Part shown: positions 37,908 through 59,014 of the stretch, piece by piece
Layout: the number at the start of each line of letters is the position of its first letter
Numbering within the stretch: the first letter of the stretch is position 1
From: Ruegeria sp. R14_0
GTDB taxonomy: Bacteria > Pseudomonadota > Alphaproteobacteria > Rhodobacterales > Rhodobacteraceae
Length of the DNA: 64,000 bases
Direction of reading: 5' to 3'
NCBI RefSeq assembly: GCF_017743975.1
Contig: NZ_JAGHRC010000002.1
Span: 186,001 to 250,000, forward strand
Position numbers and translations under genes: made by a program
The notes under the pieces: generated by a model
Database searches by the model: none
Told to the model about the DNA's origin: nothing
What the model saw: only the letters and a program-made list of their open reading frames with translations

Positions 37908-38687
37908 TTAGACTGCGCGGTCGACCATCATCTTCTTGATCTCGGCGATCGCTTTGGCCGGATTCAAACCCTTCGGGCAGGTCTTGGCGCAGTTCATGAT
38001 CGTGTGGCAACGGTACAGCTTGAAGGGATCTTCCAGCTCGTCCAGACGCTCGCCCGTGGCTTCATCCCGGCTGTCGATGATCCAGCGATAAGCGTGCAAC
38101 AAAGCGGCGGGCCCAAGGTAGCGATCACCGTTCCACCAATAGCTCGGGCACGAGGTCGAGCAGCTGGCGCACATCACGCATTCGTACAGACCATCCAGCT
38201 TTTTGCGATCCTCGATGGATTGTTTCCACTCTTTCGCCGGGCGGTTTGTCTTGGTTTCCAGCCACGGCATGATCGAGGCATGCTGGGCGTAGAAATGAGT
38301 CAGGTCCGGGATCAGGTCCTTCACCACCGGCATGTGCGGTAGCGGGTAAATCTTCACATCGCCCTTGATCTCATCCATGCCGTAGATACAGGCCAGAGTG
38401 TTAATCCCGTCGATATTCATCGCACAGGATCCACAAATCCCTTCACGACAGGACCGACGGAAGGTCAAGGTGGGATCGATTTCGTTCTTGATTTTGATCA
38501 GCGCGTCCAAAACCATCGGGCCGCAACTGTCCATGTCCACGAAATAGGTGTCTACGCGCGGGTTTTGCCCATCGTCCGGGTTCCAGCGATAGATTTGAAA
38601 CTTACGAACATTCTTGGCGCCTTCCGGCTTGGGCCAGGTTTTGCCCGTCGTAATCCGAGAGTTCTTTGGCAGGGTGAGTTGTACCAT
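37908..38687 (-). CDS. sdhB: Succinate dehydrogenase iron-sulfur subunit
   Basis: Passes electrons from the flavoprotein to ubiquinone in complex II. The 259-residue protein has the [2Fe-2S] ligands in CREGICGSC and a following Cys, the [4Fe-4S] motif CVMCASC with SCP, and the [3Fe-4S] motif in [14 protein letters not shown]. The ATG at 38687 has a GAGG site and fits the family N-terminus ([11 protein letters not shown]). It is separated from sdhA by a divergently placed glycosyltransferase gene, so it probably has its own promoter. Confidence 0.97.
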
Positions 38688-38849
38688 TTCCGACCTCGCT
38701 AAAATCCCGCTAATAGATATACTCCGCAGCGCAGAAAGCCAACCTTTTAACCTTGAAAACACCTAAGAAAATTAGGCAAATTCGCCTTTACGGACTCCTG
38801 ACGCAAAAAGAATGTGCAGGTGCAAAACGGGCTGAGGGCAGAACATAGA

Positions 38850-39978: not shown

Positions 39979-41787
39979 TTAGAATGTCCGCGCTTTGGGC
40001 GCGATTTTCTGCAGGCTGATACCGCCTTCATCTTCGGTGGTCAGCGGATCGACGATCACCGGACGATAGCTGAGCTCGACCTTGTTGCCATCGACACGCG
40101 AGACGGTGTGGACACGCCAGTTTTCGTCATCACGTTCGGTGAAATCCTCATGCGCGTGTGCGCCACGGGATTCCTTACGTGCCTCGGCACCCACGATGGT
40201 GGCCAGAGCGCTTGGCATCAGGTTGGTCAGTTCCAGCGTTTCCATCAGGTCACTGTTCCAGACCAGCGAGCGGTCGCTGACTTTCAGGTCGTCCATTTTA
40301 GCTGCAATCGCAGTCATTTTCTCGACGCCTTCGGCCATGGTTTTGGCGGTCCGGAATACGGCCGCGTCCTCTTGCATGGTGCGCTGCATCTCCAGCCGCA
40401 GATCCGCAGTCGGGATCGCGCCACTGGCATTGCGGATGGCATCAAACCGATCAAAAGCCTTATCGACGGACGCCTGGTTCAGAACCGGGTTCGGCGCGTC
40501 CGCGTCAACAACCTTACCGGCCTTGATCGCAGCGGCGCGGCCAAAGACAACCAGGTCGATCAGCGAGTTCGAGCCCAGGCGGTTTGCACCATGGACCGAG
40601 GCACACCCCGCCTCACCCACAGCCATCAGGCCTGGAACCACGGCAGTTGGGTCGTCAGCGGTCGGGTTCAGAACCTCACCCCAATAGTTCGTCGGGATAC
40701 CGCCCATGTTGTAGTGAACGGTCGGCAGAACCGGGATCGGCTCTTTCGTTACGTCGACGCCTGCAAATACGCGCGCCGATTCCGAGATACCCGGCAAACG
40801 CTCTGCCAGCGCGTCGGCTGGGAGGTGGCTGAGGTTCAGGTGAATGTGGTCACCATTTTCACCATGGCCGCGGCCTTCACGGATCTCCATGGTCATCGAC
40901 CGCGAGACATAATCGCGGGGTGCCAGGTCCTTGTACTGGGGCGCATAGCGCTCCATGAACCGTTCGCCTTCCGAGTTGGTCAGATAACCACCTTCACCCC
41001 GTGCGCCTTCGGTAATCAGGCAGCCCGAGCCGTAGATGCCGGTTGGGTGGAACTGCACGAATTCCATATCCTGCAGGGCCAGGCCCGCGCGGGCCACCAT
41101 GCCACCACCGTCGCCGGTGCAGGTATGGGCAGAGGTTGCGCTGAAATAGGCGCGGCCATAGCCACCGGTCGCCAGCACCACCATCTTGGCGTTGAAGACA
41201 TGCATCGTGCCGTCGTCCAGCTTCCAGCAGACGACACCCTGACACTGCCCGTCCTCGGACATGACCAGGTCAATGGCGAAGTACTCAATGTAAAACTCGG
41301 CGTTGTTCTTCAGCGACTGACCGTACAGCGTGTGCAGGATCGCGTGGCCGGTTCGGTCAGCGGCGGCACAGGTCCGCTGCACCGCGGGACCTTCACCGAA
41401 TTCGGTGGTGTGGCCGCCGAAAGGACGCTGATAGATCTTACCTTCTTCGGTCCGGCTGAAGGGCACACCATAGTGCTCCAGCTCATACACGGCCTTAGGA
41501 GCCTCACGCGCGAGGTATTCCATCGCGTCGGTGTCACCCAGCCAGTCCGAGCCCTTGACGGTGTCGTACATGTGCCACTGCCAATGGTCGGGTCCCATGT
41601 TCGAAAGCGACGCGGCGATACCGCCCTGCGCAGCAACCGTGTGCGAGCGTGTCGGGAAAACCTTGGTCACGCATGCCGTGCGCAAACCCTGTTCCGCCAT
41701 ACCCAGTGTGGCGCGCAGACCGGCCCCACCGGCACCGACAACAACCACGTCATATTCGTGTGTTTCGTATTCGTATGCAGCTGTCAT
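39979..41787 (-). CDS. sdhA: Succinate dehydrogenase flavoprotein subunit
   Basis: Oxidises succinate to fumarate with covalently bound FAD. The 602-residue protein has the FAD fold [16 protein letters not shown] near residues 12-27. The FAD-linked His is in [14 protein letters not shown] near residue 47, and GGHTTEFG and the active-site block [21 protein letters not shown] lie later. It follows sdhD by 24 bases on the minus strand. sdhB is displaced by the glycosyltransferase gene. Confidence 0.98.
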
Positions 41788-41811: not shown

Positions 41812-42183
41812 TCACAGAGCCAGCTTGATCAGGGCAAACAACCCTGCAGCCATCAATGTGTAGCCAAACGCCGCGACGGCCATGAGGCTCAGCTTTTCTG
41901 CGACACCGTGGACATAATCTTCGATCGCTACCTGTGTTTCACGCACCAGGTGCAGAATGACGACGACCATTGTCAGGCCAGTCACAATGGCCGGGAACGG
42001 ACGACCGTAATACGCCAGAACCTCTTCGTAGGATTTGCCCAGCCCGTTGGCAAAGACGAACACGAAAAGCGGCACAAGAACAACCAGCGCGGCCGAGCTG
42101 ACCATCATCTGCCAGTGGTGATGCGTACCTTCGCCGCCAGCCCCGGTTCCCTGCGCGCGCTTGCGGTCAGTGAGATAATTCAT
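41812..42183 (-). CDS. sdhD: Succinate dehydrogenase membrane anchor subunit
   Basis: A 123-residue membrane protein with three hydrophobic helices that anchors complex II and helps form the ubiquinone and haem site. His residues in THHHW near the N-terminus and HLVRETQVAIEDYVHG match the SdhD family. The ATG at 42183 was chosen from the family start MNYLTDRKRAQG. It lies 11 bases from sdhC in the same transcript. Confidence 0.92.
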   Translation of the reverse strand: MNYLTDRKRAQGTGAGGEGTHHHWQMMVSSAALVVLVPLFVFVFANGLGKSYEEVLAYYGRPFPAIVTGLTMVVVILHLVRETQVAIEDYVHGVAEKLSLMAVAAFGYTLMAAGLFALIKLAL

Positions 42184-42194
42184 AACCAGTCTCC

Positions 42195-42578
42195 TTAAAC
42201 CGCGATCGCCGTGATGAAGGCGAGGATCGTAGCCAGCACCAGCATACCGATCCCCAGCTTCTCGGAAATCCGCACATCCACGCAGTACCCCAGGTCCCAG
42301 ATCACGTGACGCAGACGGCCCAGCATGTGGTAGAAAATCGCCCAAGTCGCAGCGAACATCACCAGATCACCCAACCAGCTTCTCATCAGGCCGTCGATAA
42401 AATTGAATGACGACTCTGAAGTCGCGGCTGCCAGGAACCACCAGACGACAAAGAATGCGATCGCCAGTGACGCAATTCCCGTGATACGCACGAGGATTGA
42501 GGTCACCGAAGTCAGCTGCGGGCGATAAATCGAAAGATGGGGTGAAAGAGGGCGATTGCCCCGATTTACATCGGCCAT
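42195..42578 (-). CDS. sdhC: Succinate dehydrogenase cytochrome b556 subunit
   Basis: A 127-residue membrane subunit with three helices. It has the SdhC signature RPLSPHLSIYRPQLTSVTSILVRITG at residues 9-34 and the haem-ligand region FYHMLGRLRHVIWDLG near residue 82. The ATG at 42578 has an AAAGGAG site. It heads the sdhCDA transcript, and a double palindrome (42692-42721) lies about 115 bases upstream. Confidence 0.96.
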   Translation of the reverse strand: MADVNRGNRPLSPHLSIYRPQLTSVTSILVRITGIASLAIAFFVVWWFLAAATSESSFNFIDGLMRSWLGDLVMFAATWAIFYHMLGRLRHVIWDLGYCVDVRISEKLGIGMLVLATILAFITAIAV

Positions 42579-42691
42579 GTTGGCTCCTTTACGGTTGGCT
42601 TCCGAAGGTTTTACCGTTTTTTGCCGTTCTGTCACGTGCTGCAGCTGCAAAAAAGCTGATAATTGATGCAAAATGGCGGATATTTGTGATA

Positions 42692-42721
42692 TGTGATCAC
42701 ACAAAATAAAGTCGTGATCAC
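42692..42721. promoter_or_regulatory. Double-palindrome operator upstream of sdhC
   Basis: A perfect TGTGATCACA at 42692-42701 and a second GTGATCAC core at 42714-42721 have centres exactly 21 bp apart, two helical turns. The same paired arrangement and spacing recur upstream of sucC (49529-49559). A half site TTGTGAT precedes the first. It is a good candidate for a transcription factor binding as two dimers. Confidence 0.75.
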
Positions 42722-42777
42722 AAAAGCATTATGAGACATGTGATGTTAGCGCCTGAAACCCCGAATCTGCGATTCAG

Positions 42778-43440
42778 CTATTTCAATTCAGCGGTTTGCT
42801 GGGTCACTTCACGCAGCAATTTCTTCCGGATACGCGCGGGATAATCGGCAAACCCCGAGGCCGAAACGACAAATGCTCCCTCGCCTACGATCACGTTTTC
42901 AAAGAAATAGGCCGTCAGGTCTGGTTCGGTTTCCTCGATGGCAATTGCGTTCACCGTCACACCACGGGTCCGCAGGATTCGGTGCACTTCAGACGGCTCG
43001 ATCCCCTCGTTCGACACACCATCGCCCGAGATGTCGATCAGATGCCGCTCGCATTCGGCAACCTCGTCAAAATAGGCCATAGTCGTTTCCAACGCCTCGC
43101 CTATCGCCGTCGAGAAATTGCGCCAGACACGAGGATCATTGCCTACCCTGTCCGCAAACTGATCTATCGCCTCGAAACTGTCGATGCGTGTCCAGGGAAC
43201 CGTGACTTGCTGGCGCGACGATCCCGTCCATTGCACCAGCATCACTTGGGCCCGTCCGCGTACCAGCGCCTCGGACACAATCGGGTCGCGCAAACCGGCG
43301 GCAAGACCGTCCATTTGAATACGGTATTCCGTACTGTCGACCGACCCCGAGACATCCACCGCCAACGCCAAAGCGAGATCGCAGGCATAGGCGGGCGGCG
43401 ACAGGCAGACGCAGGTTGCTAATGTGCGAAACAGGGTCAT
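42778..43440 (-). CDS. DUF1194 (von Willebrand A-like) exported protein
   Basis: A 220-residue protein with an N-terminal signal peptide (ending near AYA) and a VWA-like fold. The MIDAS motif DVSGSVD (near residue 29) and a later SGDGVSNEG block are conserved in the DUF1194 family. Such proteins are thought to bind metals or partners in the periplasm; the function is not established. It is the last gene upstream of the sdhC operator region. Confidence 0.85.
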   Translation of the reverse strand: MTLFRTLATCVCLSPPAYACDLALALAVDVSGSVDSTEYRIQMDGLAAGLRDPIVSEALVRGRAQVMLVQWTGSSRQQVTVPWTRIDSFEAIDQFADRVGNDPRVWRNFSTAIGEALETTMAYFDEVAECERHLIDISGDGVSNEGIEPSEVHRILRTRGVTVNAIAIEETEPDLTAYFFENVIVGEGAFVVSASGFADYPARIRKKLLREVTQQTAELK

Positions 43441-49528: not shown

Positions 49529-49559
49529 TGTGATCACACCCCAAAAAACTGTGATCACA
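49529..49559. promoter_or_regulatory. Double-palindrome operator upstream of sucC
   Basis: Two perfect copies of TGTGATCACA at 49529-49538 and 49550-49559, centres exactly 21 bp apart, end about 108 bases before the sucC ATG. The same pair and spacing are present before sdhC. The region between the operator and sucC contains TATAAC at 49631-49636, but its -35 partner is unclear. Confidence 0.77.
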
Positions 49560-49667
49560 AATAATGAAAATCTTCGTGAAAAACTGCATCCCTGTCAAAA
49601 AAGCCTTTAAACTTGCCCCCTAGACACCCCTATAACGGTGTAATCGCAGTCAGACAGGACAGTTTCG

Positions 49668-50861
49668 ATGAACATTCACGAATATCAGGCCAAAGCGCTT
49701 CTTCGTAGCTATGGCGCTCCGGTCTCCGAAGGACGCGCGGTTCTGCGCGCCGAGGAAGCCAAAACCGCAGCTGGTGAATTGGACGGCCCGCTTTGGGTTG
49801 TCAAAGCGCAAATCCACGCAGGTGGCCGCGGCAAAGGCTCGTTCAAAGAGGCCGACGCCGGTGAAAAAGGCGGCGTCCGTCTGACCAAGTCGGTGGAAGA
49901 AGCCGCCGAAGAAGCCAAAAAGATGCTGGGCCGCACACTGGTCACCCACCAGACCGGTCCCGCAGGCAAGCAGGTCAACCGCATCTACATCGAAGCTGGA
50001 TCCGGCATCGAGCGTGAGCTGTACCTGGCCCTGCTGGTCGATCGCCAGACCAGCCGTATCTCGTTCGTCTGCTCGACCGAAGGCGGCATGGACATCGAAG
50101 AGGTGGCCGCCGCAACGCCCGAGAAAATCCTGTCCTTCTCGGTCGATCCCGCGACGGGCTATCAGCCCTATCATGGCCGCCGTATCGCCTTCTCGCTGGG
50201 CCTGGAAGGTGCGCAGGTCAAACAATGCGTTAAGCTGATGAGCCAGCTCTATGCAGCCTTCGTCGAGAAGGACATGGAGATGCTGGAGATCAACCCGCTG
50301 ATCATTTCGGACAAGGGCGACCTCAAGGTGCTGGACGCCAAAGTCGGTTTCGACGGCAACGCGGTCTACCGTCACCCCGACATCGCCGAGCTGCGCGACA
50401 CGACCGAGGAAGACCCCAAGGAACTGGAAGCCAGCAAATACGACCTGAACTACATCGCACTGGATGGTGAGATCGGCTGCATGGTCAACGGTGCCGGTCT
50501 GGCGATGGCGACGATGGACATCATCAAGCTGTACGGGGCTGAGCCTGCCAACTTCCTGGACGTTGGTGGTGGTGCCACCAAAGAGAAAGTGACCGAAGCG
50601 TTCAAGATCATCACCTCGGACCCGCAGGTCAAAGGCATTCTGGTCAACATCTTCGGCGGCATCATGCGCTGTGACGTCATCGCCGAGGGCGTCGTCGCCG
50701 CGGTGAAAGAGGTCGGCCTGCAGGTTCCGCTGGTCGTGCGTCTGGAAGGCACGAATGTCGAGAAAGGCAAAGAGATCATCAACACCTCTGGCCTGGACGT
50801 GATCGCGGCGGACAACCTGAAAGACGGTGCCGAGAAGATCGTGAAGGCCGTCAAAGGCTAA
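49668..50861 (+). CDS. sucC: Succinyl-CoA synthetase beta subunit
   Basis: ADP-forming beta subunit that with SucD converts succinyl-CoA to succinate with substrate-level phosphorylation. The 397-residue protein starts [22 protein letters not shown], has the ATP-grasp domain ([13 protein letters not shown]), and the C-terminal block [17 protein letters not shown]. It heads the suc gene cluster, with 83 bases to sucD. Confidence 0.98.
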
Positions 50862-50944
50862 TCCAATTCCGTGGGGTGGGTTTCGACCCGCCTTTCCGAA
50901 GAATTCTGGCAGGCTTTGGCCCGCCTAAAATAGGAGAACGCCAA

Positions 50945-51826
50945 ATGGCAGTCCTCATCGACGAAAATACCAAAGTGATCTGTCAGGGCTTCACCGGCTC
51001 GCAGGGCACATTCCACTCTGAACAGGCCATCGCCTATGGCACCAAGATGGTCGGCGGCGTGACCCCCGGCAAAGGCGGGATGACCCATCTGGACCTGCCC
51101 GTGTTCAACTCGGTCCACGAAGCCAAGCACGTGACCGAAGCCAATGCCTCGGTGATCTACGTGCCACCGCCCTTTGCGGCTGACTCGATCCTCGAAGCGA
51201 TTGATGCCGAGATGGAAGTAATTGTCTGCATCACCGAAGGCATCCCGGTTCTGGACATGATGAAGGTGAAGCGCGCGCTGGAAGGCTCGAACTCGCGCCT
51301 GATCGGCCCGAACTGCCCCGGTGTCATCACGCCGGATGCATGCAAGATCGGCATCATGCCCGGCCACATCCACAAGCGCGGCTCGGTCGGCGTTGTTTCA
51401 CGCTCGGGCACTCTGACTTACGAGGCCGTAAAGCAGACCACCGATGTGGGTCTGGGCCAGTCCACCTGCGTGGGCATCGGCGGCGACCCGATCAAAGGCA
51501 CCGAGCATATCGACGTGCTGGAATGGTTCCTGGCCGATGACGAGACCGAGTCGATCATCATGATCGGTGAGATCGGTGGCTCGGCCGAAGAAGAAGCCGC
51601 GCAATTCCTGGCGGATGAGGCCAAGAGGGGCCGCAAGAAGCCAACCGCAGGTTTCATCGCAGGCCGCACAGCCCCTCCGGGCCGCCGCATGGGCCACGCG
51701 GGCGCGATTGTCGCCGGCGGCAAAGGCGGTGCGGAGGACAAGATCGAAGCCATGCGCTCGGCCGGTATCGTCGTGGCCGAAAGCCCTGCCCAGCTGGGTG
51801 AGGCTGTGTTGGAAGCGATTGGCTGA
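50945..51826 (+). CDS. sucD: Succinyl-CoA synthetase alpha subunit
   Basis: CoA-binding alpha subunit. The 293-residue protein has [27 protein letters not shown] in pieces near residues 14-40 and the phosphorylated His in [11 protein letters not shown] near residue 247. The ATG at 50945 with AGGAG upstream is preferred over the in-frame extension to 50876. It is followed by a DUF805 gene. Confidence 0.98.
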
Positions 51827-51867: not shown

Positions 51868-52410
51868 ATGACCTTTGGTGAGGCTGTCAGAACGTGTTTC
51901 TCCAAATTCTTCACTTTTTCGGGCCGCGCCTCGCGGCCCGAATACTGGTTCTTTTTCCTGTTCATCGTGATCTGGAACATCATCGCCGGAATCATCGACT
52001 GGCAACTCTTCACGCAAGTCTCGGTCAGCCAAAGCGATGAGGTGAAATCCGTCACTGCAACGTCCTCGGCACCGGTGCAGAGCATCGTGGGCCTGATCGT
52101 GTTCATCCCGCATCTGGCCGTCGCGTGGCGGCGGATGCATGATACCGGGCGCAGCGGGCTGTTCGCCCTGTTGCCGATCCTTCTCATCCTCGGCGCCGGG
52201 GCGGTTCTGTTCTTTGGCATCGGCCTTGCCTCCAGTTTCCAGCACGGCGGCAATCTGGACATCCTGTTCACCCGCGCCACCCTGCTGATTGTCATTCCGA
52301 CACTGCTTGTTCTTTTTGTGTCGCCCCTCCTGGTTCTTTGGTGGCTGACCCGCCCCAGCCAGCCAGGCACCAACCAATACGGTCCCAACCCAACAGAGGT
52401 AGCCCAATGA
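51868..52410 (+). CDS. DUF805 membrane protein
   Basis: A 180-residue membrane protein with four or five helices. It has the DUF805 signature FFTFSGRASRPEYWFFFLF near residues 14-32 and WRRMHDTGRSGLFALLP near residue 88. Function is unknown. It sits between sucD and sucA, with its stop overlapping the sucA ATG by four bases; the same insertion occurs in related roseobacters (from memory). Confidence 0.88.
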   Translation: MTFGEAVRTCFSKFFTFSGRASRPEYWFFFLFIVIWNIIAGIIDWQLFTQVSVSQSDEVKSVTATSSAPVQSIVGLIVFIPHLAVAWRRMHDTGRSGLFALLPILLILGAGAVLFFGIGLASSFQHGGNLDILFTRATLLIVIPTLLVLFVSPLLVLWWLTRPSQPGTNQYGPNPTEVAQ

Positions 52411-55364
52411 CCGAACATACGCCTAACTCTGCCTTTCATGCCTCAAGCTTTATGCAGGGGCACAATGCGGAATATCTGGAGCAGCTTTATGCCCAGTACA
52501 CCAAGGATCCGAATGCGGTAGATGCCGCCTGGGTCGAGTTCTTCCGGGCGATGGGCGACGCCACCCCGGATATCCAGCGCGAGGCTGAAGGGCCGTCCTG
52601 GGCACGGACCGACTGGCCTCCGATGCCGACGGATGATCTGACCGGTGCGTTGACGGGCGAATGGGCGGAAATCGATGCCAAGGCGGCTGGCAAAAAGATC
52701 AAGGACAAGGCCGAGGCCAAGGGCGTTCCGGTCAGTGAAGATCAGATCAAACGCGCCGTGCTGGACAGCCTGCGGGCGCTGATGCTGATCCGGGCTTATC
52801 GCATCCGGGGCCATCTGGCCGCCGATCTGGACCCGCTGGGCATGCGCGCGGCCAGCACCCACCCCGAGCTGGACCCCAAGACCTATGGCTTCACAGAGGG
52901 CGACATGGACCGCCCGATCTTTATCGACAACGTGTTGGGCCTGCAGATGGCCAGCATGCGCCAGATCGTCGAGATCGTGAAGCGGACATATTGTGGCACA
53001 TTCGCGCTGCAATACATGCATATTTCGAACCCCGAAGAGGCCGCGTGGCTGAAGGAACGGATCGAGGGGTATGGCAAAGAGATTCAGTTCACCAAGGAAG
53101 GCCGAAAGGCGATCCTGAACAAGATGGTCGAGGCCGAAGGCTTCGAGAAGTTCTTGCATGTGAAATACATGGGCACCAAGCGGTTCGGTCTGGACGGCGG
53201 TGAGGCGCTGATCCCCGCGATGGAGCAAATCATCAAGCGCGGTGGCGCGTTGGGTGTCAGCGATATCGTGATCGGTATGCCGCACCGCGGTCGCCTCAAC
53301 ATCCTGGCCAACGTGATGCGCAAGCCGTATCGCGCCATCTTTAACGAGTTCCAGGGCGGTAGCTTCAAACCCGAAGATGTCGACGGGTCAGGCGACGTGA
53401 AATACCACCTCGGTGCTTCCAGCGACCGCGAATTTGATGGCAACTCGGTGCACCTGTCGCTGACGGCAAACCCCTCGCACCTCGAGGCGGTGAACCCGGT
53501 TGTTCTGGGCAAGGTTCGCGCCAAACAGGATCAGTTGGGCGACGAAAACCGCACCAGGGTCATGGGTATCCTGTTGCACGGCGACGCAGCCTTTGCCGGT
53601 CAGGGTGTTGTGGCCGAAGGCTTCGGCCTGTCCGGCCTCAAGGGTCACAAGACCGGCGGCACGATGCACATCGTGGTGAACAACCAGATTGGCTTCACCA
53701 CCGCGCCGCACTTCTCGCGCTCGTCCCCATACCCGACTGATATCGCGCTGATGGTCGAAGCGCCGATTTTCCACGTGAACGGCGACGACCCTGAGGCCGT
53801 TGTCCACGCGGCCAAGGTCGCGACCGAGTTCCGCCAGAAGTTCCACAAGGACGTGGTCATCGACATCTTCTGCTACCGTCGGTTCGGGCATAACGAGGGC
53901 GACGAGCCCATGTTCACCAACCCGATCATGTACAAGAAGATCAAGACGCATAAGACCACGCTGTCTTTGTATACCGAGCGTCTGGTCAAGGATGGCCTGA
54001 TCCCCGAGGGTGAGATCGAGGATATGAAAGCGGCCTTCCAGGCGCATCTGAATGATGAGTTCGAGGCCGGGAAGGACTACAAACCCAACAAGGCCGACTG
54101 GCTGGACGGGCGCTGGTCGCATCTGGACAAGAACAAAGAAGAATATGTCCGCGGCGAAACCGCAATCGCGCCCGAAACGCTGGCCGAGGTTGGGAAAGCG
54201 TTGACCCATGCCCCTGCGGATATTGCAGTCCACAAAACGGTGGCACGTCTGCTGGATCACAAGAAGCAGATGTTCGAAACCGGAACGGGATTTGATTGGG
54301 CAACGGGCGAGGCGCTGGCGTTTGGCTCGCTGCTGACCGAAGGGTTCCCCGTACGCCTGTCCGGTCAGGACGCAACCCGCGGGACGTTCAGCCAACGTCA
54401 CTCGGGCTTCGTGCATCAGGAAACCGAAGAACGCTACTACCCGCTGAACAACATCCGTGAGGGCCAGTCGAAATACGAAGTGATCGACTCGATGCTGTCC
54501 GAATACGCGGTGTTGGGTTTTGAGTACGGCTATTCGCTGGCGGAACCCAACGCGCTGACGCTGTGGGAGGCGCAGTTTGGCGACTTTGCCAATGGCGCGC
54601 AGATCATGTTCGACCAGTTCATCAGCTCGGGCGAAAGCAAATGGCTGCGCATGTCCGGTCTGGTCACCCTGCTGCCGCACGGGTTCGAAGGGCAAGGCCC
54701 CGAACACTCGTCCGCGCGCCTGGAAAGGTTCCTGCAGATGTGTGGTCAGGATAACTGGATCGTGGCGAACTGCACCACGCCTGCGAACTATTTCCACATC
54801 CTGCGCCGTCAGCTGCACCGAACCTTCCGCAAGCCGCTGATCCTGGTGACACCCAAATCGCTGCTGCGCCACAAGCTGGCAGTCAGCAAGGCCGAGGAAT
54901 TCACCACCGGTTCCAGCTTCCACCGCGTATTGTGGGACGATGCGCAGCAGGGAAATTCGGACACAAAGCTGGTCAAGGACGACAAGGTCAAGCGCGTGGT
55001 GATGTGTTCCGGCAAGGTCTACTACGACCTGCTGGAAGAACGCGATGCGCGCGGCATCGACGATGTCTACCTGATGCGGATCGAACAGTTCTATCCCTTC
55101 CCGGCGCATTCTCTGATCAATGAGCTTGAGCGCTTCAAGGGTGCCGAAATGATCTGGTGTCAGGAAGAGCCCAAGAATCAAGGCGCCTGGACCTTTATCG
55201 AGCCGAATATCGAATGGGTACTGACCCGCATCAAGGCCAAGCATACCCGGCCACGCTATGTTGGTCGCGCCACATCGGCCTCGCCCGCGACGGGTCTGGC
55301 CAGCCAACACAAAGCCCAACAAGAAGCGCTGGTGAACGAAGCGCTGAGCATTGAAGGAAAATAA
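52407..55364 (+). CDS. sucA: 2-Oxoglutarate dehydrogenase E1 component
   Basis: Thiamine-diphosphate-dependent decarboxylase of the 2-oxoglutarate dehydrogenase complex. The 985-residue protein begins with the E1o N-terminal region (FHASSFMQGHNAEYLEQLYAQYTKDP in pieces). It has the ThDP region GMPHRGRLNIL near residue 290 and the transketolase C-domain with RQHSGFVHQETEERYYPL parts near 671. The ATG at 52407 overlaps the DUF805 stop. sucB follows after three bases. Confidence 0.98.
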   Translation: MTEHTPNSAFHASSFMQGHNAEYLEQLYAQYTKDPNAVDAAWVEFFRAMGDATPDIQREAEGPSWARTDWPPMPTDDLTGALTGEWAEIDAKAAGKKIKDKAEAKGVPVSEDQIKRAVLDSLRALMLIRAYRIRGHLAADLDPLGMRAASTHPELDPKTYGFTEGDMDRPIFIDNVLGLQMASMRQIVEIVKRTYCGTFALQYMHISNPEEAAWLKERIEGYGKEIQFTKEGRKAILNKMVEAEGFEKFLHVKYMGTKRFGLDGGEALIPAMEQIIKRGGALGVSDIVIGMPHRGRLNILANVMRKPYRAIFNEFQGGSFKPEDVDGSGDVKYHLGASSDREFDGNSVHLSLTANPSHLEAVNPVVLGKVRAKQDQLGDENRTRVMGILLHGDAAFAGQGVVAEGFGLSGLKGHKTGGTMHIVVNNQIGFTTAPHFSRSSPYPTDIALMVEAPIFHVNGDDPEAVVHAAKVATEFRQKFHKDVVIDIFCYRRFGHNEGDEPMFTNPIMYKKIKTHKTTLSLYTERLVKDGLIPEGEIEDMKAAFQAHLNDEFEAGKDYKPNKADWLDGRWSHLDKNKEEYVRGETAIAPETLAEVGKALTHAPADIAVHKTVARLLDHKKQMFETGTGFDWATGEALAFGSLLTEGFPVRLSGQDATRGTFSQRHSGFVHQETEERYYPLNNIREGQSKYEVIDSMLSEYAVLGFEYGYSLAEPNALTLWEAQFGDFANGAQIMFDQFISSGESKWLRMSGLVTLLPHGFEGQGPEHSSARLERFLQMCGQDNWIVANCTTPANYFHILRRQLHRTFRKPLILVTPKSLLRHKLAVSKAEEFTTGSSFHRVLWDDAQQGNSDTKLVKDDKVKRVVMCSGKVYYDLLEERDARGIDDVYLMRIEQFYPFPAHSLINELERFKGAEMIWCQEEPKNQGAWTFIEPNIEWVLTRIKAKHTRPRYVGRATSASPATGLASQHKAQQEALVNEALSIEGK

Positions 55365-55367
55365 TCG

Positions 55368-56876
55368 ATGTCCATTGAAGTTCGAGTTCCCACGCTTGGC
55401 GAATCGGTTACCGAAGCAACGGTTGCCACTTGGTTCAAGAAACCCGGCGACGCTGTGGCCGTGGATGAAATGCTGTGTGAGTTGGAGACCGACAAGGTCA
55501 CCGTCGAAGTCCCTTCGCCCGCCGCTGGCGTAATGGGCGAAATCGTCGCCGCCGAGGGCGAAACTGTTGGTGTAGACGCATTGCTGGCTACGATCGTCGC
55601 AGGCGAAGGCGCGGCCCCCGCTCCGGCGGCGGCTCCGGCCCCTGCGGCGGCCGCTCCGGCGGCGTCGGGCGGCAGTGTTGACGTTATGGTGCCAACCTTG
55701 GGTGAATCCGTGACCGAAGCGACTGTTTCGACATGGTTCAAACAGGTCGGTGACAGCGTCGCGCAGGATGAGATGCTGTGCGAGCTGGAAACCGACAAAG
55801 TGTCGGTCGAGGTCCCCGCACCCGCAGCGGGCGTTCTGGCCGAAATCGTGGCCCCAGAAGGCGCGACCGTTGACGCCACCGCGAAACTGGCTGTGATCTC
55901 GGGTGCGGCAGCTGGGTCTGCTCCGGCTCCGGCGGCAGCAGCGACGGCCCCGGCAGCGGCCAGCACAGGCAAGGATATCGCCAACGCACCCTCGGCAGAA
56001 AAAGCCATGGCCGAAGCTGGCCTGTCCACCAATCAGGTCACCGGCACCGGTCGTGATGGCCGGATTATGAAGGAAGACGTGGCCCGCGCGGCTGCAACGG
56101 CAGCGGCCCCCGCACCGGCCCCAGCAGCACCTGCACCGGCACCGGCTCCGCGCGCGCCCGTGGCGGCAGCAGATGCCGGCCGCGAAGAACGCGTGCGTAT
56201 GACCCGTTTGCGCCAGACCATTGCCAAGCGCCTGAAGGACGCGCAGAACACCGCCGCCATCCTGACCACCTTTAACGAGGTCGACATGACCGAGGTGATG
56301 GCCCTGCGCAATCAGTACAAGGACCAGTTCGAGAAGAAGCACGGCGTCCGTTTGGGCTTTATGTCCTTCTTCACCAAGGCCTGCTGCCACGCGCTGAAAG
56401 AAGTGCCTGAGGTGAATGCCGAGATTGACGGCACCGACATCGTCTACAAGAACTTCGTCCATATGGGCGTGGCCGCCGGTACGCCGCAGGGTCTTGTGGT
56501 TCCGGTCATCCGTGACGCCGACAGCATGTCCTTTGCTGCAATCGAAAAGGCCATCGCCGAAAAAGGCAAACGCGCCCGCGACGGCAAGCTGAGCATGGAA
56601 GAGATGCAGGGCGGCACCTTCACCATCTCAAACGGTGGTGTCTATGGCTCGTTGATGTCTTCGCCGATCCTGAACCCACCGCAATCGGGCATTCTGGGTA
56701 TGCATAAGATCCAGGACCGCCCGATGGTCATCAATGGTGAGATCAAGATCCGCCCGATGATGTATCTGGCCCTGTCCTACGATCACCGGATCGTTGACGG
56801 CAAAGGCGCGGTGACCTTCCTTGTTCGCGTAAAAGAGGCGTTGGAAGACCCACGCCGCCTGCTGATGGATCTGTAA
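55368..56876 (+). CDS. sucB: 2-Oxoglutarate dehydrogenase E2 (dihydrolipoyl succinyltransferase), two lipoyl domains
   Basis: Core of the complex, transferring the succinyl group to CoA. The 502-residue protein has two tandem lipoyl domains with lipoyl lysines at about Lys43 and Lys144 (both in ETDKV), joined by Ala/Pro-rich linkers. A subunit-binding domain lies near 205-240. The catalytic domain ends in [13 protein letters not shown] (H-x-x-x-D-G, near residue 472). The E. coli enzyme has one lipoyl domain, so this one is longer. Confidence 0.97.
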
Positions 56877-56878
56877 TC

Positions 56879-57148
56879 ATGGCAACCCATGTACTCTGGC
56901 AAGCTGACGTGGCCGACTTTGATGTCTGGTTGAAAGTGTTCGAAGAAGACAAACCGATGAGAGAGGCCGCGGGCATCCGCGACCTCCACATCTGGAAAGA
57001 TCCTACACGCAAGGATCACGCGGTCGCGCTGTTCGAGATCACGGATCTGGAGCGGGCTCAGGACTTCATCGACTCGGAAGAACTGGCCATGCACCACGAA
57101 CGCGGTGGCGTGGCCCATATCCAGACCAAGGTATTGTCTCCCGTATGA
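56879..57148 (+). CDS. Small dimeric alpha/beta-barrel-like protein
   Basis: An 89-residue soluble protein (MATHVLWQADVADFDVWLKVFEED start, HAVALFEITDLERAQDFIDSEEL middle, IQTKVLSPV end) with alternating strands and helices of the dimeric ferredoxin-like type seen in ABM-like small enzymes and stress proteins. There is no obvious catalytic residue. It lies two bases after the sucB stop and overlaps the MAPEG gene by four bases, so it belongs to the suc transcript. Function unknown. Confidence 0.7.
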   Translation: MATHVLWQADVADFDVWLKVFEEDKPMREAAGIRDLHIWKDPTRKDHAVALFEITDLERAQDFIDSEELAMHHERGGVAHIQTKVLSPV

Positions 57149-57555
57149 CCCCGGAACTTACGGCCCTGACGCTTGCGGCATTGCTACAAGTTATTCAGTT
57201 CGCTCTGATGGCCGTTCCGGCCAATATCGAACTTGGGCCGGGCAAGACCATGTCCGCACGTGACAGGGTGCGTCTGGGCGGATCGCTAGAGGATCAATTG
57301 TCGGAAGGTACGGCGCGGCTTTATCGGGCCATGAACAACCATTTCGAAGGATTGATCCTGTTTGCGATTGCGGTCACTGTGGTGACTCTCTCGGATCAGG
57401 CGAGCGGCTTTACCGCAACCTGTGCATGGATCTACCTTACAGCCCGTGTGGTTTACATCCCTGCATATTATTACGGCTGGAAACCTTGGCGCAGTATCAT
57501 CTGGTTTGCGGGTTTTCTGGCCACCACCTTCATTCTTTTGGCGGTGCTATTGTGA
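57145..57555 (+). CDS. MAPEG family membrane protein
   Basis: A 136-residue membrane protein with four helices of the MAPEG (membrane-associated eicosanoid/glutathione metabolism) family: RLYRAMNNHFEGLILFAIAVTVV near residue 59 and ARVVYIPAYYYGW. Bacterial members may be glutathione transferases, but function is not shown. It lies between the small gene and lpd in the suc region. Confidence 0.82.
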   Translation: MTPELTALTLAALLQVIQFALMAVPANIELGPGKTMSARDRVRLGGSLEDQLSEGTARLYRAMNNHFEGLILFAIAVTVVTLSDQASGFTATCAWIYLTARVVYIPAYYYGWKPWRSIIWFAGFLATTFILLAVLL

Positions 57556-57625: not shown

Positions 57626-59014
57626 ATGGCAAACTATGACGTTATCGTAATCGGATCCGGCCCCGGCGGCTATGTCTGCGCCATCCGCTGCGCTCAACTG
57701 GGCCTGAAGACCGCTTGTGTCGAAGGGCGCGAGACATTGGGGGGCACTTGCCTGAACGTGGGCTGTATCCCTTCCAAAGCGCTGCTGCACGCCTCACACC
57801 AACTGCACGAGGCCGAGCACAACTTTGCCAAAATGGGCCTGAAGGGCAAAAGCCCGTCGGTCGATTGGAAACAGATGCAGACCTATAAGCAGGAAACCAT
57901 CGACGGGAACACCAAGGGGATCGAGTTCCTGTTCAAGAAAAACAAGATTGACTGGCTGAAAGGCTGGGGGTCGATCCCCGCCGCCGGTCAGGTCAAGGTG
58001 GGTGACGAGATTCACACCGCCAAGAACATCATCATTGCCTCGGGGTCCGAGCCGTCGGCGCTGCCTGGCGTAGAGGTAGATGAAAAGGTTGTCGTGACCT
58101 CGACCGGGGCTCTGTCGCTGAACAAGGTTCCGAAGAAAATGATCGTGATCGGCGCGGGTGTGATCGGGCTGGAACTGGGCTCGGTCTATCAACGTCTGGG
58201 TGCCGAGGTGACTGTGATCGAGTTCCTCGATGTGATTACCCCCGGTATGGACCCCGAGGTTCAGAAGACCTTCCAGCGTATCCTGAAAAAGCAAGGCCTG
58301 AACTTTGTCATGGGGGCCGCGGTTCAAAAGACCGAAGCCACTAAGACCAAAGCCAAGGTCACTTACAAGCTGCGTAAGGATGATAGTGAGCATGTGATCG
58401 AAGCCGACACCGTTCTGGTTGCCACGGGCCGCAAGCCGTTCTCGGACGGTCTGGGACTTGAGGCGCTTGGGGTCGAAATGACACCGCGCGGTCAGATCAA
58501 GGTGGGCTCGGACTGGCAGACCAACGTGCCGGGCATCTACGCCATCGGCGACGTGACCGAAGGCCCGATGCTGGCGCACAAGGCCGAAGACGAAGGCATG
58601 GCCGCCGCTGAACAGGTCGCGGGCAAGCATGGTCACGTCAACTATGGCGTCATCCCCGGCGTGATCTACACCTGGCCCGAAGTCGCCAATGTAGGCGAAA
58701 CCGAAGAAACGCTGAAGGAACAGGGTCGCGCCTACAAGGTTGGAAAGTTCATGTTCATGGGCAACGGTCGCGCCAAAGCCAACCTGATGACAGACGGGTT
58801 TGTTAAAATCCTGGCGGACAAGGAAACCGATCGCATTCTGGGCTGCCACATCATTGGCCCAGCCGCTGGTGACCTGATCCACGAGGTTTGTGTCGCGATG
58901 GAATTCGGTGCCTCAGCCGAGGATCTGGCCCTGACCTGCCACGCGCACCCGACCTACTCCGAGGCCGTACGCGAGGCCGCTCTGGCTTGCGGTGACGGGC
59001 CGATTCACAGCTGA
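57626..59014 (+). CDS. lpdA: Dihydrolipoyl dehydrogenase (E3)
   Basis: Reoxidises dihydrolipoyl groups of the 2-oxoglutarate (and possibly other) dehydrogenase complexes. The 462-residue protein has FAD-binding [14 protein letters not shown], the redox pair in [13 protein letters not shown] (near residues 40-52), the NAD fold [17 protein letters not shown], and catalytic His in [10 protein letters not shown] near the end. Start is the ATG at 57626 with AAGGAG upstream. Confidence 0.98.

Follow-up and report, generated by a model that had tools for sequence, protein, structure and literature searches.

Palindrome pairs before sdhC and sucC

The window, i.e. the whole 64,000-nucleotide stretch of DNA that was analysed, holds the succinate dehydrogenase genes on the minus strand and, on the plus strand, sucC, sucD, sucA, sucB and lpd together with mdh, as assigned by domain searches. 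Two 10-bp palindromes lie upstream of sdhC and two upstream of sucC. The features are as follows (coordinates are those of the window):

37908..38762, minus strand: sdhB, iron-sulfur subunit (PF13085 and 4Fe-4S models; true start probably further in)
39979..41787, minus strand: sdhA, flavoprotein (PF00890 and PF02910 over cut-off)
41812..42195, minus strand: sdhD, membrane anchor (TIGR02968 over cut-off)
42195..42578, minus strand: sdhC, succinate dehydrogenase cytochrome b556 subunit (TIGR02970 over cut-off)
42608..42613, minus strand: predicted sdhC -10 box TAAAAC (promoter scan; 16-bp spacer)
42630..42635, minus strand: predicted sdhC -35 box GTGACA (promoter scan; proximal palindrome centred 61 bp away)
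42692..42701, no strand: sdhC-proximal palindrome TGTGATCACA (read on the plus strand)
42713..42722, no strand: sdhC-distal palindrome CGTGATCACA (centre 21 bp from that of the proximal one)
49529..49538, no strand: sucC-distal palindrome TGTGATCACA
49550..49559, no strand: sucC-proximal palindrome TGTGATCACA
49607..49612, plus strand: weak predicted sucC -35 box TTAAAC, low confidence (distance to the proximal centre 52 bp; 25% of shuffles reach its score)
49668..50861, plus strand: sucC, succinate--CoA ligase beta
50876..51826, plus strand: sucD, next after sucC
52338..55364, plus strand: sucA
55368..56876, plus strand: sucB
57626..59014, plus strand: lpd

Other genes are interspersed with these. 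A glycosyltransferase-like gene (PF13692; 38814-39905, plus strand) lies between sdhA and sdhB on the opposite strand and thus splits the sdh genes, a nucleotide-diphospho-sugar transferase-like gene (PF03407; 48561-49442, plus strand) stands between mdh and the sucC promoter, and a MAPEG-family gene (57145-57555, plus strand) between sucB and lpd. Directly upstream of the palindromes at sdhC is a DUF1194 gene (42778-43440, minus strand) with a weak von Willebrand A match.

On re-reading of the sequence, the coordinates and the 21-bp centre-to-centre spacing given for the sdhC palindromes in the original prediction proved exact, the GTGATCAC core of the distal palindrome occupying 42714-42721. 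The distance announced to the sdhC start, about 114 bases, also held: the proximal palindrome ends 114 bp 5' of the ATG at 42578 on the minus strand. This ATG is our choice of start; the mechanical frame opens at TTG 42704, and the ATG was preferred because matches to the SdhC models set in at residues 6-8 of the protein read from it. The copy said to precede sucC was likewise found, with two perfect palindromes whose centres are 21 bp apart, the proximal one lying 108 bp from the sucC ATG. Centres two helical turns apart support the proposal that both palindromes of a pair are on one face of the helix.

A lone exact 10-mer is unremarkable; the pair is what is remarkable. Six 10-mers with at most one mismatch occur in the window against 2.08 expected, a number reached in 3 of 100 shuffles, and the 8-mer GTGATCAC is expected 63 times per genome by window composition. 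For an exact pair of 8-mers at a single fixed spacing, the same calculation gives an expectation of 0.0008 per genome and 0.00001 per window. The 4.66-Mb genome contains two pairs with 9-17 bp between the cores, both inside the window, and the reversed-pattern control gave none; with these values chance is indeed unlikely for the pair at sdhC and sucC, as had been argued from its recurrence.

The exact 10-mer TGTGATCACA has six copies genome-wide: three in the two pairs, one before akgR (see below), one within a 545-aa reading frame in locus L060 and one in locus L065 (1501-1510), where, by eye, it stands alone about 200 bp past the 3' end of a GMC-oxidoreductase-like reading frame. For any further members of the regulon, besides the two operons and akgR, such exact 10-mers were the only guide. 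A genome scan with a 13-bp gap and up to three mismatches returned 64 places versus 2 in the reversed control; besides the two exact pairs, these comprised at least one place with one mismatch and at least six with two.

Conservation of the pair and its position relative to predicted promoters

When relatives were scanned, as the original prediction had suggested, the pair (gap of 3-30 bp) was recovered in 175 of 198 sampled genomes of the family, while the reversed control was found in 0 of 198. Among the 75 pairs listed, which come from 36 genomes, the centre spacing is 21 bp in 62, 20 bp in six and other in seven. We also located promoters by tblastn (38 distinct sdhC and 46 distinct sucC promoters) and found the pair in 37 and 46 of them, respectively; since most of these loci were chosen for holding a pair, this set shows spacing and position, not frequency. 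Neighbouring palindromes are spaced by 21 bp (33 times), 20 bp (four times) and 106 bp (once) at sdhC, and by 21 bp (43 times), 20 bp (five times) and 26 bp (twice) at sucC, where loci L131, L140 and L153 carry arrays of three or four GTGATCAC palindromes with 21- and 26-bp steps. The paired motif is present before both genes in relatives, which supports the earlier view of a candidate operator common to two TCA operons: relatives have retained an operator-like element. Outside the family, a pair with a gap of 12-13 bp was detected in 2 of 237 genomes, with one genome (G271) giving five control matches. One of these two pairs, spaced by 21 bp and found in G344 (L186, 992-1020), directly precedes, by eye, another GntR-like reading frame.

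Core promoters were predicted with a matrix made by hand after GTGAC boxes had been noticed, position being disregarded, and a promoter was said to beat its shuffles when it scored above at least 90% of them. At sdhC, the best promoter beats its shuffles in 33 of 38 cases and typically reads GTGACW-N16-TA. In 28 of these 33 promoters the -35 box begins 61-64 bp from the proximal centre, a cluster that shares ancestry and does not represent 28 independent events. The other five distances are 44, 52, 73, 82 and 84 bp, four of which are about one or two helical turns off the main position, the 44-bp distance fitting no whole turn. The consensus does not pick out the sucC core promoter, which is weak (just 2 of 46 score above their shuffles); the most frequent distance there is 51-52 bp (13 of 46), i.e. 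one turn closer than at sdhC.

A candidate AkgR orthologue as the putative regulator

A transcription factor of Rhodobacter sphaeroides, AkgR, is reportedly RSP_0981; its regulon is the subject of a 2015 mBio paper by Imam, Noguera and Donohue. The original prediction had called the regulon uncharacterised, a description that we do not retain because GTGATCAC is among the reported sites of the activator AkgR (PMC6365646) and because the predicted targets of RSP_0981, a GntR-family protein, are the same operons, namely the genes for succinyl-CoA synthetase (sucCD), succinate dehydrogenase (sdh) and the 2-oxoglutarate dehydrogenase complex (PMC4344238). The AkgR regulon and the one considered here thus resemble each other in the kind of regulator, the motif and the targets, and a candidate orthologue is encoded in the genome. 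In the literature searched, nothing was found that links TGTGATCACA with the TCA cycle, and, among the matches listed, the operator was not the subject, by title or abstract, of the GntR, sdhC, sucC or Roseobacter literature.

The candidate akgR gene encodes a 215-aa protein in which the GntR and FCD models PF00392 and PF07729 both score over cut-off; it is located at G000:C19:106143-106787 on the minus strand, outside the window on the same contig, at a distance of about 122 kb from sdhC. Of the GntR-domain matches in the genome (27, of which 24 exceed the curated cut-off), only the akgR candidate carries GTGATCAC in the 250 bp that precede the helix-turn-helix. A palindrome is also found just upstream in all 30 closest orthologues fetched.

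Matches to the candidate occur in 186 of the 198 family genomes at 1e-20 or better and in 175 at 1e-75 or better, as read by us from the table, in which the values jump from 1.9e-61 (G122) to 1.2e-82 (G184); the best match in the 237 genomes outside the family is 7.2e-42. Of the family genomes, 171 contain both a strong orthologue and the pair, four the orthologue alone, four the pair alone and 19 neither (Fisher p 4.9e-19, kinship ignored). Most of the genomes with the orthologue alone are exceptions only at first sight: before sucC, G040 carries an exact palindrome and, 21 bp from it, one with a single mismatch, and in G147, G155 and G166 the SucC search gives only a 52% paralogue or no match. 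The four drafts with the pair alone (G019, G033, G096 and G114, of 91, 74, 77 and 100% completeness) count against a role of AkgR. A good sucC without the pair is present in 16 genomes lacking a strong orthologue, kinship among the 16 being ignored. In three of these (G017, G109 and G157), a single-mismatch palindrome 134, 111 and 134 bp, respectively, before sucC is suggestive of decay; single-mismatch sites also stand before two paralogues, so that chance may account for all three.

One genome of the set, G051, carries pairs before both sucC and sdhC, with the orthologue about 5 kb from the sdhC pair. This GntR gene near sdh, whose product is 76% identical to the candidate, groups with that of Cereibacter ovatus (100/92, bootstrap unsettled). 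Partly from this grouping, we take G051 to be probably Cereibacter sphaeroides, i.e. Rhodobacter sphaeroides; none of the 80 named loci kept from the orthologue search is labelled R. sphaeroides. The position of the G051 gene agrees with the close locus tags RSP_0974-6 and RSP_0981 of R. sphaeroides (PMC4344238). Unlike the G051 gene, which is close to sdh and lacks an exact palindrome upstream, akgR of the present genome has such a palindrome and is separated from sdh by about 122 kb.

The pair is genuine and conserved, and the sequence comparisons make it very probable that it serves as a double operator to which the AkgR orthologue binds. The pair might instead be bound by another GntR regulator, or by a factor of another family that shares GTGATCAC, AkgR being merely correlated with it. 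Indeed, 27 GntR-domain matches are available in the genome, and the motif is shared by at least two GntR-family members, because a GTGATCAC site is also proposed to head the deoxyribonate cluster of PS417_07240, a gntR-like gene of Pseudomonas simiae whose product is 32% identical to AkgR (PMC6365646), and because the G344 pair precedes a different GntR-like frame. The P. simiae system shares the kind of regulator and the motif but differs in pathway, and one palindrome is mentioned for it in the passage concerned. We nevertheless regard another regulator as improbable, given that the AkgR candidate alone has the palindrome upstream, that orthologue and pair track each other over the 198 genomes, and that the published predicted targets of RSP_0981 are these very operons (PMC4344238).

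A second question is whether the pair at sdhC and sucC could serve repression instead of activation, with the bound protein acting as a roadblock or forming a loop. The akgR site is itself in a repressor position, and many GntR-family proteins are repressors. This reading is unlikely, although less so than that of another regulator, as AkgR is called a transcriptional activator (PMC6365646) and as most predicted sdhC -35 boxes have the pair 61-64 bp on their 5' side and not on top of them. Much less probable still is a CRP/FNR-type site or a site of CceR (RSP_1663), which in R. sphaeroides also controls central carbon metabolism including succinate dehydrogenase and which, unlike AkgR, belongs to the LacI family and has another motif, printed as a GTT-N6-8-AAC inverted repeat (PMC4344238). 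By eye, the palindromes themselves do not contain this repeat, and CceR was dropped. The CRP/FNR site is TGTGA-N6-TCACA, and the TGTGA and TCACA of the palindromes resemble CRP half-sites; at sdhC and sucC, however, the half-sites abut with no 6-bp spacer, and this candidate was dropped as well. Finally, single palindromes do occur elsewhere in the genome, one even within a 545-aa reading frame, as they would if the pair were due to chance or were a functionless repeat, but its presence in 175 of 198 genomes against none in the reversed control renders this explanation negligible.

Putative modes of action at the pairs and at akgR

If the pair is a double operator for the AkgR orthologue, each palindrome would be bound by one AkgR dimer, so that two dimers would sit side by side, perhaps cooperatively, on the same face of the helix. 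From this position upstream of the core promoters of sdhC and sucC they would activate transcription of the sdh and suc operons. Activation by AkgR is likely in our view, and both binding and cooperativity are inferred from the sequence. By our estimate, the predicted pair centres at sdhC are at about -97 and -118, which would be far upstream for simple activation and counts against AkgR as an activator; an upstream position kept in phase would suit an activator that touches RNA polymerase.

At akgR, by contrast with the pairs, a single palindrome is found. Its start lies 12 bp past a TTGA[CT]N box in most cases, namely in 26 orthologues out of the closest 30 and in 39 out of all 48 with the site. 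The palindrome is in a repressor position because lying 12 bp behind the -35 box of the predicted promoter puts it over the spacer and the -10 region, between the -35 box and the start codon. AkgR bound there may block RNA polymerase, resulting in negative autoregulation, which we predict for one clade. No mention of akgR autorepression was found in print, in a literature search that did not extend to the paper defining AkgR.

Tentatively, and with somewhat less than even confidence, we propose that the arrangement of its sites decides how AkgR acts: two-turn spacing in helical phase with the core promoter, in pairs or in arrays of three or four, would make it an activator, a single palindrome locked 12 bp behind the -35 box an autorepressor, with shifts occurring by whole turns and one clade being devoid of the autorepressor site. 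The regulon and its regulator are already described in a related bacterium; the paired, even spacing is less familiar. What is possibly new is the architecture, that is, the 20-21 bp spacing, the near-fixed distance to the predicted sdhC promoter, the few arrays of three or four sites and the single akgR palindrome usually 12 bp behind the -35 box. A TCA-cycle activator known from one species may thus be at work in most sampled genomes of the family, with a precise two-site operator and a testable prediction of akgR autorepression, and the natural promoter variants offer material for studying helical phasing of activation by a GntR-family protein.

Autorepression of akgR would not be general, because the upstream site is missing in G051 and in 65 of 113 assessable orthologues (it is present in 48, and one of the 114 was not assessable). 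For the 80 named loci alone, the site is present in 16 and absent in 63, one locus being not assessable. Its distribution follows the tree, whose bootstrap is unsettled and whose sample consists, unevenly, of close relatives of two queries: 64 of the 69 orthologues that fall on the Rhodobacter/Cereibacter/Tabrizicola side lack the site, against 1 of the remaining 44, with four changes on the tree.
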